The notes under the pieces were generated by a model that saw only the letters and a list, made by a program, of their open reading frames with translations, was not told the origin of the DNA and made no database searches. DNA of 20,435 nt from a virus, in IMG/VR virus record IMGVR_UViG_3300034118_000179, positions 1 to 20,435 of that record. The stretch is one strand, 5' to 3'. Position numbers and translations under genes: made by a program. This document shows positions 4,501-15,233 of this stretch, in pieces. Within the stretch, counting starts at the first letter, position 1; every line of letters starts with the position of its first letter.

Positions 4501-5867
4501 AGCGCCTTCTCTACGCTACCAGCAATCCAGTTTCCACCCTTGGGTTTAATTACGCGAGGAGCGGCAGCAGCCGACGCCTTGGCAAACTCCGTTGCCCCGT
4601 GCCTGATGGCCCCAGGAAGCGCTCCAGCGACCCTCAATGGCGATCCTGGACCCAAGTAGAACCCACCAGCCAACTGGCCAGCCCCGGACGCTGCACGGCT
4701 CACAGGAGCCTCTGACCTGAACGGCAGGCGCTTCTCAATGTCCTCGGACGTTGGCAGGAATGTCGGGGAATCCTTGCCGGTGATCAACTCATACGGCAGG
4801 CGGGCAAATGACTCGATGTCTCCAGGAGCACCAAGCACGCCAGAGACAAAGCCACGGGCCAGATCCACCGGCACGTTCTTGGCCGCCTCGCGGTCTTGAT
4901 TGGCCCGGCGAGGCTTCATCTGCGGGAAGACGCCAAAGGCAGCGCCACCCTTGTCCATGTGAACCTCACCACCGGCGGCCTTGCTCAACTTGACGCCCTG
5001 CACGTCAGACCCCTTTGGGGCGACGAACAGCTTCTCATACACATCATGCGGCTCACTGCGGCCAACACGAACTTGGCCAACAACATCACCCAGGCCAAAC
5101 AAGTCGCCACGGCTTCTGGGCCGCAGCGTTGGGTTTGCGCCCGTGCCCGTATTCCAAAGTTCAGCGGGGCTGGCGTACTCTGTCGCCAATCCATACTTGT
5201 GGCCAACGTCACCCTTCTCAATGGTCGCCAGGAAGTTCAGGTCGTTGAGCAACGGGTCACCGCCCTCGGGCTTGAACAGCCCCTTGCGCACTAAGTTGCT
5301 CTTGGTGAAAGCGCCGGTCTTGGGGTCAAGCTGCTCGATGCCCGCCTCGCCCTTGGCCGACATCATGGGCCTGTTGGTCTTGGGATCAATGACCACGCCC
5401 AGCTCGTTCATGATGCGGGAGTCCAGCACCTCGCCTGTCCTTGGGTCAATGAATGCGCCCGAAGGGAAGTCCTCACGCCGCTTGCCAGTCTTGTCCAGCA
5501 CGCGCTCGACGAGCTTTTGTTGGCCAGGGAATTTGTCAGGGTTCAGGAACCACCGATTGGGCACGGGAAGAATGGGTGATCGGCCCTCCTCGCCCATCTT
5601 GGCCACCATGCCACTGATTTCCTTGTAGGTCGGCTCGGCAGCAGCCGTGGCCTTGCTTGCGCCCTTGAGGAGCCTGGAGATACCACCGGCTTGCATATGA
5701 ACGTCACCACCAGCAGCGTACTGCTTGACCTTGCGATCCCACACATGCTCCCGTCCCTTGTACTGGAGCGGAACACCACCACCAGCCGCAGCCCACTCCT
5801 GAAAAGACTGCTTCTTGGAAACCGAATCGGTTCCGCTTGGCTTTGACTTGGGTTTATTGCTGGCCAT
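1587..5867 (-). CDS. Large mosaic (polyvalent-type) phage protein with PcfJ-like domain
   Basis: A 1426-aa protein. I start it at ATG 5867 (MASNKPKSK) because AGAAAGG lies 8 nt upstream; the in-frame ATG at 5900 has no such site. The start overlaps the previous gene by 14 bp. A glycine-rich linker motif recurs at residues about 50-62 (AAGGDVHMQAGG), 297-315 (AAGGEVHMDKGGAAFGVFP), 933-951 (AHGGPVKMAGGGAAFGIYP) and 1407-1414 (KKGGAVSG), dividing the chain into modules. Residues about 680-860 look like the PcfJ-like domain of large polyvalent proteins: YRWVEL, MGHSVRGY, KVYSLVDPKGAPHATVEV, ITQIKGKQN, YIQDFV. The first module (about 90-295) contains YGLATEYASPAELWN and is unrecognised, as is the C-terminal 450 residues. 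Its place next to the portal suggests a virion-associated or co-injected protein. The function is unknown and no enzymatic residues can be named with confidence. Confidence 0.85.
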   Translation of the reverse strand: MASNKPKSKPSGTDSVSKKQSFQEWAAAGGGVPLQYKGREHVWDRKVKQYAAGGDVHMQAGGISRLLKGASKATAAAEPTYKEISGMVAKMGEEGRSPILPVPNRWFLNPDKFPGQQKLVERVLDKTGKRREDFPSGAFIDPRTGEVLDSRIMNELGVVIDPKTNRPMMSAKGEAGIEQLDPKTGAFTKSNLVRKGLFKPEGGDPLLNDLNFLATIEKGDVGHKYGLATEYASPAELWNTGTGANPTLRPRSRGDLFGLGDVVGQVRVGRSEPHDVYEKLFVAPKGSDVQGVKLSKAAGGEVHMDKGGAAFGVFPQMKPRRANQDREAAKNVPVDLARGFVSGVLGAPGDIESFARLPYELITGKDSPTFLPTSEDIEKRLPFRSEAPVSRAASGAGQLAGGFYLGPGSPLRVAGALPGAIRHGATEFAKASAAAAPRVIKPKGGNWIAGSVEKALDPLKTRTIAGETPAQRIPKHEALLSDPSLNKDQIDRVLYQLDETKKEAAIDQWVDRNLGNYVKKEMATPEDPVRKLAEEGITHLPADAMNRGQWLSESMEAIRRSEGFPGAGMARTEAGRGWENLADESIQITAPIVANKEMLAANPWLSKLDPNQSVYRARQADVSELGFDHIMDVLRQDVASGRIRPEQLNKVSMEQAVRRTYDYDQELAAKMTASRAAQREGLPVYKEYPEGYRWVELNKPGSFASESEAMGHSVRGYEPPKGHPDWMEASGDSGSLGYGHGGWEAIKEGKAKVYSLVDPKGAPHATVEVGPTHRDRGFFGNQRPIGDDYYIQQNKYIAGQNDGTVSPKVTFAEWWRASQGIPEPESLAPRITQIKGKQNAAPKEDYLPYIQDFVKGGNWSDVGDARNAGLRRYSDVFNLNEQRAIEASGQPVPNNEWLTGEDIQRLHNAVAPEGKRLKYDARGNIIGSDEGLAHGGPVKMAGGGAAFGIYPKQRATPSSEETKKAVKQASQVGVDLLLPQDAVDVGMMLVPGGKIARKAGAALIAGGASTDTEAGVMKEVLKKLLKKEKVDHPLVFPRAEPKGKEDIRPIAQRMAEQMTGDFVRQNPKLTTNPAGKSRKQFEREQSIPLVTRNVVPERDVPPIDYENFKDYAMVGVPGDASLGGVAKRGSLTENTKPTVELTQVGDITPDQPVPLFGGPRFGNDEVFWASNADAATPVQNNVNALSELYDAPVLGKYIKMASDSANFALHNLDSLLAIQRPERLDRSKMEQLNELIRKGSPKYGDFPGFKGFEDPIDVLLQSQLNSKLRKHIAETLTKPTITDTLGLPNGLDVVAAITHPQLRNLETGVSGFSVGQMTPGAVLRRGESAHPTYDTDITGKLILQNKYPTPYEIAFPDTTAYARSQLTPGVQEFNMMKLLGPRERIDQQYIDEMKMYEELMKQYTGRKKGGAVSGLSTVNKLCGCHD
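5820..5832. repeat. 13-bp palindrome copy, AACCGAATCGGTT
   Basis: Perfect copy inside the 5' end of the mosaic-protein gene (coding T-D-S-V), 33-45 bp after its start codon. It is a position where a bound protein could block transcription into the virion genes. Confidence 0.65.
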
Positions 5868-6222
5868 GCTCGTCGCCTTTCTGAGGTATGACGGCATCAT
5901 AAACGGTGGGCTGTGTCAAGTCCATCCGCTGGTCCAGCCATACGTTGAACACGCGCAGTGCCCATTCCTTGTCGATTGGCTCACCCCAACGGCTGCACAA
6001 CTCGAAGCGGTTGGCGCACATCTCTACCTTGGGTTTAGCTTGCATGGAGGTCTTTCGCTGGACGTTGACGCACATAGAGCAAATAGGCTTGCCCATCGGG
6101 TCGTTAAAGATCTGCTGCTTGAGCTTGCTCAGGCCGCCGGTGCTGTACATCCGACAAAGCGTGTCCTTGCCATCCCAGTAGTGGGCGGCAGACTTGGCCT
6201 TCAATGGGTTGAGGAGGTACAC
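5854..6222 (-). CDS. Cysteine-rich phage protein of unknown function
   Basis: A 122-aa protein starting at GTG 6222 (MYLLNPLKAK); the first in-frame ATG would remove about 24 residues. AGGGG lies about 5 nt upstream of the GTG. Cysteines are arranged as C-x2-C (ICSMC) and, about 20 residues later, C-x6-C (MCANRFELC), with another at TLCRMY. This could be a small zinc-binding fold of the kind seen in phage proteins beside the packaging genes. It is the first gene after the 379-bp non-coding gap, and its end overlaps the start of the mosaic protein, so the two are probably co-translated. I do not recognise the family and assign no function. Confidence 0.7.
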   Translation of the reverse strand: MYLLNPLKAKSAAHYWDGKDTLCRMYSTGGLSKLKQQIFNDPMGKPICSMCVNVQRKTSMQAKPKVEMCANRFELCSRWGEPIDKEWALRVFNVWLDQRMDLTQPTVYDAVIPQKGDEHGQQ

Positions 6223-6601
6223 GTTAACCCCTAGCCTTATTAAATTTCACCCAAAGACCCCCCTACCCCATGAAGGAGCAGAGAGGGAAGGTGCTTCACC
6301 CCTGTCAAGCAGGATCATCATGTGACGGGTTGGGCACCGTCTACCCCTCGGCTTGATGATTCGACCAGCCGCACGGATTATTCGGGAACTGCCCCCTAGC
6401 CTTGCGGCATACCGTGTACGCTTTTCTTCCGCGCCACCACGACTGAGGTGCTTGCTAACGTGCGGAGTACGGCTGTGGTCGTGAACGCAAAAAGCCGTTA
6501 CTACTGCACTGGGTCGCGCCCTCCCGTAGGAGGCCAATGCATGAGTAACGGCTTTCAACTGTTGTGCGCGACCACAACAACTGGTTTGTACCACAGCCAG
6601 A
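6223..6601 (-). ncRNA. Candidate structured RNA between terminase and virion genes
   Basis: A 379-bp stretch with no credible gene, dense in nested inverted repeats. Perfect pairings (plus coordinates): 6491-6502 with 6544-6555 (12 bp, AAAGCCGTTACT); 6560-6566 with 6573-6579 (7 bp); 6471-6479 with 6590-6598 (9 bp); 6520-6524 with 6529-6533 (CGTA loop); 6459-6465 with 6369-6375 (7 bp); 6314-6320 with 6354-6360 enclosing 6324-6328 with 6337-6341; 6301-6304 with 6310-6313. The loop 6567-6572 (CGCGAC) is complementary to 6513-6518 (GTCGCG), which would make a pseudoknot. Two stems gain an extra G.U pair only when read as minus-strand RNA (6490/6556 and 6559/6580), matching the direction of the operon. 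The 12-bp stem ends in GGCTTTTTG on that strand, so part may act as a terminator. No Rfam class was recognised. Confidence 0.45.
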
Positions 6602-8020
6602 TCAGATTGCATAGGGATTAACCCTACGAACTCTGCCGGTATCTGCAAAGTCGTCCTCGTCCCAGTCCTCGTCAGGCGGCGGGTCGATGTCCAACCACCC
6701 GGCATCCCTCAGATACCGCAACGCCTGGGTGCAGGCGTCCACAAGGTCGTCGTGGGTCGTCTCAGGGAAGCTACAGATCTGGCTGACGAACCCCTCGGCC
6801 CAGTCCTTGACGTAGCCCTTCCTGTGGTCTGACTCAGGAATCCACACCCGCCCACGGGCGATCACGTTGGACACAATGTTCAGCCGCTGCATCTTGTCAG
6901 CCCGGCCAGGGTTGTACGCCCGCACGGGAAGGTGGGCACGCTGGAGGTCTTGGATCAAGCTGATGCCAGCCGACTTGTCCTCGATCAGCAGCAAGTCGAC
7001 CCGCTTCCTGTCCTTGCCCTCACCGAAGACCGTCTCGTACTCCTCAATGACCTTTGGACGCAGATCCGGGTACTGGAGCCTCTCCTGCCAGCAATCAATC
7101 ACCATCGCGCTCATAGGCCCGTCCTGGGGCTTGAAAATGCCAAAGGTGATCGAGGCCGTCGGATCGTTCTGCACCTTCTCTGAGGTGGCAACGTCATACG
7201 ATTGCAGGATGTACTCAAACCTGGGGAAGGGACGCCCTGCTGGCCAGAGCTTGAACATCTCCCGCTTGACGATCCCGCCCTCCTCGGGGTCAATGATCTC
7301 AGCGTAGATCTCCTGCCTGCCCAGCTTCGTGCCCTCGTAAGCCAGAATCTGTTTCCTAAAGTTGTCCGACAAATTCTTCAGGTTGGCATACGTCGAGGCG
7401 GTGGTCAGCACCACATCGTCACCCTCCCGGCCCATCAGATCAATGATCAGATCCTTTGGCCTGGGCGTAGTGGTGACAATCATGCGGGTGCGCTTGCCCA
7501 GGCGCATGCCGAACTGGATCTGGTCCCACGCCTCTTGGATGTACTCCCACGCAGCAAGCTCGTCGCACCAGCCCCCATGGAACTGCGGCCCCCTGAAGCG
7601 CTCAGGCTCGGACGCGGGAATACCCTTGATCAGGCTGCCGTTGGTTAGGCGCAGTTCGTGGGCGGTCTTGTTGTAGTCGGCCACCAGTGACTTAGGGATG
7701 ATCGTCATGAGGCCGCTGTCGCCCTCAAAGCACGTAGCCCTTACGTCAGCCGACGTAGGGGCGGCGACGAGCCAGCGCGTCCCAGGCTGCTCATAGGCCC
7801 ACCACGCGATCTGCTCGGCGGCTGTACGGGTCTTGCCAGCCCCACGGCCTGCCAGCATCAACCAGATGGACCACCAGTCGCCGGGCGGCAGGGTCTGGTG
7901 CAGGTGCTGGGTGGAGAACCAACTCATTCTCCAGGCCCACGCAAGCCGGTACTCGGGACTGGCCTGCGCGAGGGCTTTCTGCACCTCGGGGTCAGTCACG
8001 ATAGCCGCGATGTCACTCAT
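6602..8020 (-). CDS. terL: Terminase large subunit (packaging ATPase and nuclease)
   Basis: A 472-aa DNA-packaging motor protein that cuts concatemeric DNA and pumps it through the portal. The ATPase half has Walker A GRGAGKT at residues 58-64, Walker B WCDE at 151-154 and the coupling motif IVTTTPRP at about 181-188. The C-terminal RNase H-like nuclease has acidic positions in SYDVA (D276), LLIEDKSAG (E347/D348) and HDDLVD (D424/D425). The length fits the Terminase_6 type. ATG 8020 overlaps the small-subunit stop by 8 bp (ATGAGTGA), so the two are probably coupled. The last codons contain AGGGTTAATCCCT (6613-6625), a variant of the gene-end motif seen at three other genes. The 379-bp structured gap follows directly. 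Confidence 0.95.
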   Translation of the reverse strand: MSDIAAIVTDPEVQKALAQASPEYRLAWAWRMSWFSTQHLHQTLPPGDWWSIWLMLAGRGAGKTRTAAEQIAWWAYEQPGTRWLVAAPTSADVRATCFEGDSGLMTIIPKSLVADYNKTAHELRLTNGSLIKGIPASEPERFRGPQFHGGWCDELAAWEYIQEAWDQIQFGMRLGKRTRMIVTTTPRPKDLIIDLMGREGDDVVLTTASTYANLKNLSDNFRKQILAYEGTKLGRQEIYAEIIDPEEGGIVKREMFKLWPAGRPFPRFEYILQSYDVATSEKVQNDPTASITFGIFKPQDGPMSAMVIDCWQERLQYPDLRPKVIEEYETVFGEGKDRKRVDLLLIEDKSAGISLIQDLQRAHLPVRAYNPGRADKMQRLNIVSNVIARGRVWIPESDHRKGYVKDWAEGFVSQICSFPETTHDDLVDACTQALRYLRDAGWLDIDPPPDEDWDEDDFADTGRVRRVNPYAI

Positions 8021-14011: not shown

Positions 14012-14308
14012 TTATTTTGTAGGGACAAACCCTAATAAAGTGCGAACGTCCTCCAGCAGATCCGCTTCGTTGTAGCCGTAGTGTTTTGGAAAGCCCTTCG
14101 TGCCAAGCCCGTGGAGGCCCGTCTTGCCTCTGTGGTGCTCGGGGCATAGTGGGATGACATCAAAGTGGCTTGCGCGTCTCCCGCCCCCCGTTCCGGCCCT
14201 TGGATGATGGAGTTCTGCGGGCGTCCCCTCATACCCCATCCTCCTACACACAGAGCAGCCAAGCTCGGCCACCCGATTCATGTGCTTGCGCTCGGCTGCG
14301 GTGGTCAT
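14012..14308 (-). CDS. Ref-like (RecA-dependent nuclease type) HNH protein
   Basis: A 98-aa protein, ATG 14308, overlapping the AP2-HNH stop as ATGA. C18-x2-C21 and C55-x2-HH form a zinc-bound HNH/beta-beta-alpha frame around AELHHPRAGTGGGRRASHFD, VIPLCPEHHRGKTGLHGLG and KHYGYNEADLLEDV. The order matches the P1 Ref family, which cuts DNA at RecA displacement loops; the length is about that of the catalytic domain alone. A recombination or DNA-processing role next to RusA and SSB-type genes is sensible. Other small HNH families remain possible. Confidence 0.72.
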   Translation of the reverse strand: MTTAAERKHMNRVAELGCSVCRRMGYEGTPAELHHPRAGTGGGRRASHFDVIPLCPEHHRGKTGLHGLGTKGFPKHYGYNEADLLEDVRTLLGFVPTK

Positions 14309-14790
14309 AGCGTGGCCTTTGCAAATTCACCAAAATGTTTTTTTGACCCCAAAACATAAGCGGCGTGCGCGTCTTCTTTTGTTTTATGAGAGCCAAGTGA
14401 AATGTGCTTGCCGTTGACCATGATGGCAGACGCCCATTTTTTCGTGTCTTTTCTGAAAGTCACGCCCTTGTAGCCGCTTGTGTTGCTTGACTTCATGGCG
14501 CTGTTGGCCATGTTTTGACTTTGGGTGGCTGCTCTAAGATTTTCAATCTTGTTGTTGGTTGAGTCACCATCTTTGTGGTCAATGTAGTCAGGCAAAAAAC
14601 CATGATGCAACAAAAAAATAATGTGGTGCAAGTACATCGTTTTTTTGTTGATGCTAATTTTCCAGTATGGCCGACCGTTGCAAGCGGTAAGCCACCCAGC
14701 AGCCGTGCCAATTTTTTCGCCCCCACGGTTTGTTGTTCTGTACAGAACGCCGTTCTCGTAACGAAAATTTTCCTGAATGAAATTGATCAT
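14305..14790 (-). CDS. HNH homing-type endonuclease with AP2 DNA-binding domain
   Basis: A 161-aa protein from ATG 14790 (MINFIQENFRYENGVLYRTT), with GAGG 6-7 nt upstream. The HNH core spans residues about 53-95: LHHIIFLLHHGFLPDYIDHK then DGDSTNNKIENLRAATQSQN, with H55/H56, H72 and N84 as likely catalytic or metal ligands. Residues about 106-155 form an AP2-type fold (SGYKGVTFRKDTKKWASAIM ... HISLGSHKTKEDAHAAYVLG). This pairing is typical of free-standing mobile phage endonucleases. It is separated from the gene before it by 98 bp with a terminator-like structure, and overlaps the gene after it by 4 bp. Base composition looks more A/T-rich than its neighbours, in keeping with acquisition. Confidence 0.88.
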   Translation of the reverse strand: MINFIQENFRYENGVLYRTTNRGGEKIGTAAGWLTACNGRPYWKISINKKTMYLHHIIFLLHHGFLPDYIDHKDGDSTNNKIENLRAATQSQNMANSAMKSSNTSGYKGVTFRKDTKKWASAIMVNGKHISLGSHKTKEDAHAAYVLGSKKHFGEFAKATL

Positions 14791-14828
14791 GTCGCACCTC
14801 ATCATTGGTGGAAGCATCACAAGAAGAA

Positions 14829-14880
14829 AAACGGCAGGGCGGTGATGAATCGCCTTTTCCCCCGCTAAAGGTAGCCGTTT
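14829..14880 (-). terminator. Terminator-like structure before the AP2-HNH gene
   Basis: In minus-strand RNA, AAACGGC (14880-14874) pairs with GCCGTTT (14835-14829) and is followed by a T-rich run (TTTTTCTTCTT). An inner GGCG/CGCC pairing lies at 14838-14854. It fills the gap between the 114-aa gene and the endonuclease gene and could insulate the latter. The long loop makes it a weak prediction. Confidence 0.4.
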
Positions 14881-14888
14881 CCACAATT

Positions 14889-15233
14889 TTACATGGTCGC
14901 CTTGACAATCCCTCGGTTGCTTGCTTCTTGTGTTCTCCAGCACTCTATCCTCGCCTGGGCAGCTATCAGCATCCACCTAAGCTCCTCGCGCACCTCCACG
15001 GCCTGCTGGAGGGCGAGCAAATGCTGCTTGTAGGGGTGGCTGGCATACGCCTCCCTCTCCTGCATGGCGGCGGTCTTGTGGCCAAGCGTCTCGGCCTCAA
15101 TCATCTGCTCGGCCTTGATGGTCTTGCGCAACTCCTCCATGTAGACCTTGTTGGCCTCGGCCTGGGCATACGCCCTGGACTTGGCAATCATGAAGTCCAC
15201 CGCCGCCTGGGGGTCAATCAGTTTTTCTGTCAT
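14889..15233 (-). CDS. Conserved phage protein of the recombination/replication region
   Basis: A 114-aa protein from ATG 15233 (MTEKLIDPQAAVDFMIAKSR). GGAG lies 6 nt upstream; a TTG four codons earlier is less likely. It is almost wholly helical, with EANKVYMEELRKTIKAEQMI, then QEREAYASHPYKQHLLALQQ and RWMLIAAQARIECWRTQEAS. I know this layout from uncharacterised Burkholderia-type phage proteins that sit close to recombination genes. It overlaps the preceding small gene by 20 bp. No motif reveals an activity. Confidence 0.75.
   Translation of the reverse strand: MTEKLIDPQAAVDFMIAKSRAYAQAEANKVYMEELRKTIKAEQMIEAETLGHKTAAMQEREAYASHPYKQHLLALQQAVEVREELRWMLIAAQARIECWRTQEASNRGIVKATM

Follow-up and report, generated by a model that had tools for sequence, protein, structure and literature searches.

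A two-module, pseudoknotted RNA locus carried beside varied genes in uncultured phages

The window analysed here is a 20.4-kb IMG/VR virus record of 20,435 nt. Its gap at positions 6223–6601, between the large terminase gene and a 122-aa gene, was found to hold two adjacent noncoding-RNA modules, A and B, both read from the minus strand. The structure of both modules is well supported, whereas the evidence on function is weak and the function proposed here is inferred. Our preferred explanation, which we consider about evenly poised between right and wrong, treats the gap as a portable cassette of noncoding phage RNA in which A would yield a stable small RNA (sRNA), B would be made by read-through, and the products would act in trans.

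Structure of the two modules

The gap is the sole long one among the left-hand genes of the window, as the original prediction had noted, and the inverted repeats predicted in it, including a 12-bp stem (AAAGCCGTTACT), were verified in both coordinates and sequence. Its fold surpassed those of all dinucleotide-shuffled sequences (z = −3.2 on the minus strand and −2.9 on the plus strand), and homologous gaps showed strong compensatory change that included both pseudoknots, which bears out the prediction of a highly structured RNA; the assumption of one single RNA did not hold, because two modules are present. Model R1, built without the pseudoknot of module A, scored 80.5 bits (E = 3.6e−15) on the minus strand but 22 bits when applied to the plus strand. 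G-U pairs are found when the RNA is read in the sense direction, and the operon strand had been assigned correctly. In line with the earlier remark that no known class was recognised, scanning positions 6150–6700 against Rfam at gathering and permissive thresholds (up to E 5) returned no family. No tRNA was found in the window, and the 122-aa gene had no protein family match.

Table 1. Positions of the modules, their structural elements, and further features in the window and in related contigs (window positions unless a contig is named)
Feature	Position	Strand	Basis or remark
Large terminase gene	6602–8020	minus	upstream of gap; Pfam Terminase_6N/6C
Extended −10-like promoter element TGTGGTACAAA	6585–6595	minus	sequence; ends 6 nt before P1
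Module A, ~95-nt sRNA-like unit (P1, pseudoknot, P2/P3, U-run)	6486–6579	minus	model R1; covariation
P1 hairpin, arms GTTGT (6574–6578) and ACAAC (6561–6565)	6561–6578	minus	96.4% of P1 cells paired
Loop L1 of P1 (GTCGCGC)	6566–6572	minus	partner of L2′
P2/P3 terminator hairpin (AAAGCCGTTACT-CA-TGC.../...GCA-GT-AGTAACGGCTTT), then U-run	6489–6555	minus	covariation
L2′ (GCGCGAC), module A pseudoknot	6513–6519	minus	partner of L1; covariation
Segment CGACCACA	6474–6481	minus	just 3′ of U-run; complementary to 5′ arm/loop of A (6569–6576); candidate alternative pairing
Module B, type B1, ~227 nt, nine or more helices including two pseudoknots	6246–6472	minus	alignment A2, n = 32
Hairpin CGGCT (6367–6371)/AGCCG (6349–6353), loop segment ATCATCA (6354–6360)	6349–6371	minus	32/32 paired
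TGATGAT, module B pseudoknot	6314–6320	minus	partner of 6354–6360; 32/32 paired
122-aa gene	5854–6222	minus	downstream of gap; begins right after module B
int-alpA RNA	14814–14881	minus	RF02996, 45.7 bits, E 9.4e−7
HNH endonuclease with AP2-like domain, homing-endonuclease-like	14305–14976	minus	
tRNA-like domain in module B hairpin	L230 3327–3442	minus	also in L226, L311, L231, L159 and others
tRNA-like domain in module B hairpin	L161 5790–5855	plus	
Large terminase homology interrupted by ~850 bp	L044 1026–3338		also L040, L046–L051
199-aa HNH-like ORF lying in a different frame within the ~850-bp insert	L044 2570–3169		
Type II hammerhead ribozyme match	L111 1104–1163	plus	RF02276, 38.2 bits
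Annotated hypothetical CDS UOF77725.1, overlapping an A-B locus	MW202484.1 33533–33892 (L219 12037–12396)		

Module A opens at the RNA 5′ end with P1, whose consensus in homologues is GUUGY/RCAAC. The predicted complementarity between its loop (6567–6572, CGCGAC in plus-strand letters) and 6513–6518 (GTCGCG) lies at the right positions and is backed by covariation. Of 105 distinct homologues, 104 had an L1/L2′ helix of 7–9 uninterrupted Watson-Crick pairs, and these helices took 39 different sequences; swapped controls reached seven pairs in 3.7%. L2′ sits on the 3′ side of P2/P3, and P2 was 99.8% paired, with compensatory changes. In the 33-sequence alignment, 93.4% of paired cells were pairable versus 78.2% after shuffling, and the covariation score was 0.483 versus 0.180, with none of 500 shuffles as good; double changes were found at six of the seven pseudoknot pairs, some register slips notwithstanding. 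The U-run was present in all 33 sequences. Because module A, by its form, ends as an intrinsic terminator (a stable hairpin directly followed by a U-run), the earlier suggestion of a complex terminator was partly right.

Module A is laid out like a self-standing, terminated sRNA gene. A sigma-70-like promoter scoring at least 10/12 preceded P1 in 41 of 121 distinct upstream sequences, versus about one expected, and the −10 element mostly ended 6–7 nt ahead of P1, a fixed spacing such as an sRNA gene would have. The window's own promoter is weak: a promoter scan gave no match there, and only the extended −10-like element was seen. Module A resembles intrinsic (Rho-independent) terminators in its stable hairpin and in the run of five or more U residues after it, and differs from them in its promoter signal, its 5′ hairpin and its conserved loop-to-bulge pseudoknot.

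Past the U-run, the segment complementary to the 5′ arm of A forms an alternative pairing that is suggestive only. Such pairing of at least 6 bp occurred in 32% of homologues versus 12% of swapped controls; as a universal third pairing of module A the idea was therefore only partly supported, holding for a minority of homologues. In a read-through transcript, this segment would open P1 by pairing with the 5′ arm. The riboregulatory role originally proposed for the gap RNA may still apply.

Module B was analysed in alignment A2, which contains 32 distinct B1 sequences of 218–240 nt. Its structure comprises 38 pairs in nine helices, with double changes at 23 of the pairs; 98.8% of paired cells were pairable versus 80.9% after shuffling, and the covariation score was 0.462 versus 0.138 (0 of 500 shuffles as good). 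The CGGCT/AGCCG stem was 100% paired, with double changes at three pairs. The second pseudoknot had been predicted as TGATGAT in the loop of this stem (6354–6360) pairing with ATCATCA (6314–6320), again in plus-strand letters, and it is present in 32 of 32 sequences, with double changes at four pairs; ATCGTCA/TGACGAT and ATCTGCA/TGCAGAT are examples of its compensatory variants. In type B2 and in a type with GGGCCTGCATGGGCC, covarying stems were recognized by inspection only. No terminator of its own was seen in module B.

A protein-coding gap was considered and rejected: the B homologues vary in length through non-codon indels and share no conserved frame, so the RNA reading was not overturned by an ORF conserved among homologues, and the B2 members are out of frame by inspection. 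Equally, an ordinary bidirectional terminator followed by decayed DNA is hardly credible. The long hairpin with its U-run is a terminator by form; the two pseudoknots with compensatory changes, the strand-specific signal and the retention of a second module in more than 100 contigs all speak against decay, and the covariation refutes it.

Occurrence, association and neighbouring genes

Homologous gaps were collected starting from 80 terminase relatives. Part of the gap recurs after the terminase gene in many of these and ahead of the small terminase gene in others. The module A motif TTACTCATGC-N25-55-GCAGYAGTAA gave at least 120 viral-contig matches, nearly all of which read as the same element; the invariance of the motif letters within this set is partly by construction, because its members were found via the motif. 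More divergent module A members came from loci found through the terminase (L003, L004, L011 and L022), and L003 carries a compensatory U-A to A-U change inside the motif. The B1 and B2 motifs also gave at least 120 viral-contig matches each. Each module, like each of the three search motifs, is represented in over 100 IMG/VR contigs, and this kind of A-B locus occurs in hundreds of uncultured phage contigs, mostly environmental.

Reference collections contain almost none of these loci. Among the 50,697 INPHARED records, A-B was found in one, the uncultured phage MW202484. BLASTN of the gap against INPHARED gave chance-level matches only, and MW202484, the first match retained, became significant with a better query; with queries from other classes, two had no match and one had a 29-base match at E 0.04. 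In a bacterial genome collection, the module A motif had 17 matches, of which only L210 and L214 are the element, and the other 15 seem to be coding sequence matched by chance. Of 300 genomes sampled from one host's order, only one was positive, the one already known. Among whole records, 15 of 18, including the complete circular MW202484, contained exactly one sense copy of A; opposite-strand matches were weaker and overlapped the same place. We found no prior description of the A-B RNA in the literature outside subscription journals. The hypothetical CDS annotated over the A-B locus of MW202484 (UOF77725.1) is probably not a gene.

The two modules are closely associated. Of 143 distinct B loci, 123 were preceded by a terminator hairpin whose end lay <90 nt from B, whereas 71 of 864 random sites had any such hairpin within 300 nt. 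Loop pairing of at least 7 bp was present in 113 of these 123 hairpins, versus about 13 expected by chance, so the layout of A is retained in classes of differing sequence; many of these loci lack the A motif and had thus not been found through A. A types and B types recombine in a mix-and-match manner. In L170, A is directly followed by an apparent gene start, and A alone therefore probably occurs. Extra modules, some with closing hairpin arms of their own, lie between A and B in L047, L109, L118, L242 and L321. At least two classes of larger upstream module precede B, in L319, L335, L337 and L348 and in L072, L328 and L349; these are of the CCCATT...AATGGGTTTTT type and the CCCCATAG...TATGGGGTTTTT type and may be separate RNA families.

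The genes around the cassette vary widely. Its same-strand neighbours belong to at least 32 families upstream and 50 downstream, and none of the protein families was common to all 14 records compared. A shared protein partner was rejected as a candidate: the widest family, which looks tail-related by eye, occurred in only 10 of the 14. In L010, L018 and L038, A-B lies at the junction between the terminase gene and the homologue of the 122-aa gene, whereas in close relatives such as L009, L019, L026 and L045 the terminase stop leads straight into that homologue; the cassette is cleanly absent even from relatives whose terminase is 90–94% identical.

These neighbours bear directly on the suggestion of a packaging-associated RNA similar to the phi29 pRNA. 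Like the pRNA, A-B is a phage RNA with loop-to-loop complementarity, and it adjoins terminase genes in the window and, counted by eye, at about 28 of 79 such loci that were searched. Its fold is different, however, it lacks an Rfam match, and elsewhere unrelated genes precede it, in one case on the early side of MW202484. Since the neighbouring genes vary so widely, and near-identical terminase relatives do without the cassette between the same genes, there is no fixed link to the terminase, and we consider a packaging role very unlikely.

Further elements were met in the same set of sequences. The int-alpA RNA model (RF02996) matched above threshold in L233 (44.9 bits) as well as in the window, and more weakly in L221 (30.4 bits); L233 and L221 both carry a B1 RNA. 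The ~850-bp insert in the terminase homology of L044 is in frame and intein-like. The HNH endonuclease of the window and the hammerhead match in L111 are given in Table 1.

tRNA-like domains and comparison with known RNAs

In a subset of B1 RNAs, one hairpin contains an insertion of ~110–190 nt with D-arm-like and T-arm-like hairpins, closed by arms of the GATTGATGATGG/CCATCATCAATC type. The Rfam tRNA model matched at E 0.003 in L230 (B1) and L161, which has a different B type, and ARAGORN did not call the tRNA-like domains of B RNAs as tRNAs. Some members lack the canonical T loop, and the sequence that stands in its place is often complementary to the D-like loop, as CUGAU/AUCAG or, in L304, as CCGAU/AUCGG (by inspection only). 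Real tRNA genes lie just upstream of the A-B locus in L229 and L233, which is not general among the loci.

The closest kind of RNA is represented by GOLLD and ROOL, with which A-B has no detectable homology; their models had no match up to E 1 in the homologous loci. GOLLD and ROOL are ornate RNAs of phages and prophages with several pseudoknots, and the GOLLD linker can hold tRNAs (PMC12286853). A-B is likewise phage-encoded, ornate and pseudoknotted. Of a tRNA link of the GOLLD/ROOL type there are only occasional signs, the tRNA-like insertions inside some B1 RNAs and the tRNA genes near two loci, and none in the window. In contrast to GOLLD and ROOL (600–800 nt), A is ~95 nt and B ~230–400 nt; A-B has no Rfam match, a separate terminated module A nearly always leads, and the modules mix.

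Possible modes of action

According to the preferred cassette explanation, RNA polymerase would initiate where A begins and in most cases terminate at its U-run, giving a stable sRNA of ~95 nt with its 5′ end locked in the pseudoknot. B would arise by read-through of the A terminator or from transcription of upstream genes, and would be either a folded leader for the genes that follow or an RNA released by processing. The products of A and B may then be structured RNAs that work in trans by binding a host component, and not a switch that serves a single neighbour. Trans action fits better than control of one gene because the neighbours are varied, the locus is single-copy and cleanly present or absent, and its make-up is mosaic. 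Against this explanation, the next gene was co-directional with the cassette in 82 of 98 cases and B has no terminator of its own, both of which also suit a cis-acting leader; the segment complementary to the 5′ arm of A hints at a switch in cis or trans, and the promoter in the window is weak.

A cis-acting attenuator and leader is consequently a serious rival, which we rate as possible rather than probable. In this view A would terminate transcription conditionally where an operon begins, and B, a structured 5′ leader, would control antitermination, stability or translation downstream. Besides the co-directional genes, this would explain why an A-like module is almost always ahead of B, why several whole records have the cassette behind a divergent junction, close to where a rightward operon begins, and why an alternative pairing spans the A terminator. 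However, the diversity of the downstream genes and the unfixed genome position do not favour a leader; B is far more ornate than usual leaders, and relatives manage without the cassette.

The P1 c4 antisense RNA and the P4 CI RNA are short phage RNAs whose transcription stops at an internal terminator that may be read through. The IsrK sRNA of Salmonella Gifsy-1 acts through two transcripts of one promoter, one short and terminated, the other a read-through product (PMC4825925), and A is similarly a short phage RNA with an internal terminator and possible read-through to a longer one. In a regulatory or immunity RNA of this kind, the short RNA would pair in trans with the read-through transcript and the variable loop would set specificity; the hypervariable loop indeed stays complementary to nearby segments. 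We nevertheless find this unlikely, since in nearly all members that loop is paired within its own RNA, the main complementarity lying inside A, and the third segment is complementary only in a minority. The single positive among 300 host-order genomes gives little sign of lysogeny, the Rfam c4 model did not match the gap, and A-B differs from these RNAs in lacking an Rfam match, a linked ant-like gene and a conserved neighbour.

Returning to the cassette, A as a pseudoknotted sRNA and B as its ornate partner may further constitute a modular kind of phage RNA machine that has not been described before, passed among unrelated phages and acting in trans on a host component, a bolder proposal that we regard as doubtful at present. 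Large structured phage RNAs without a known job are few and have so far been surprising, GOLLD and ROOL having turned out to be RNA-only cages. The present family combines very strong covariation with a size compact enough for bench tests, and it is nearly invisible in reference collections; its modularity and the tRNA-like domain of some members are concrete handles on function. If the proposal is true, some members would carry a tRNA-mimicking elbow domain, and the RNAs may serve, for example, as decoys or inhibitors of translation factors or of a host defence that is directed by RNA.
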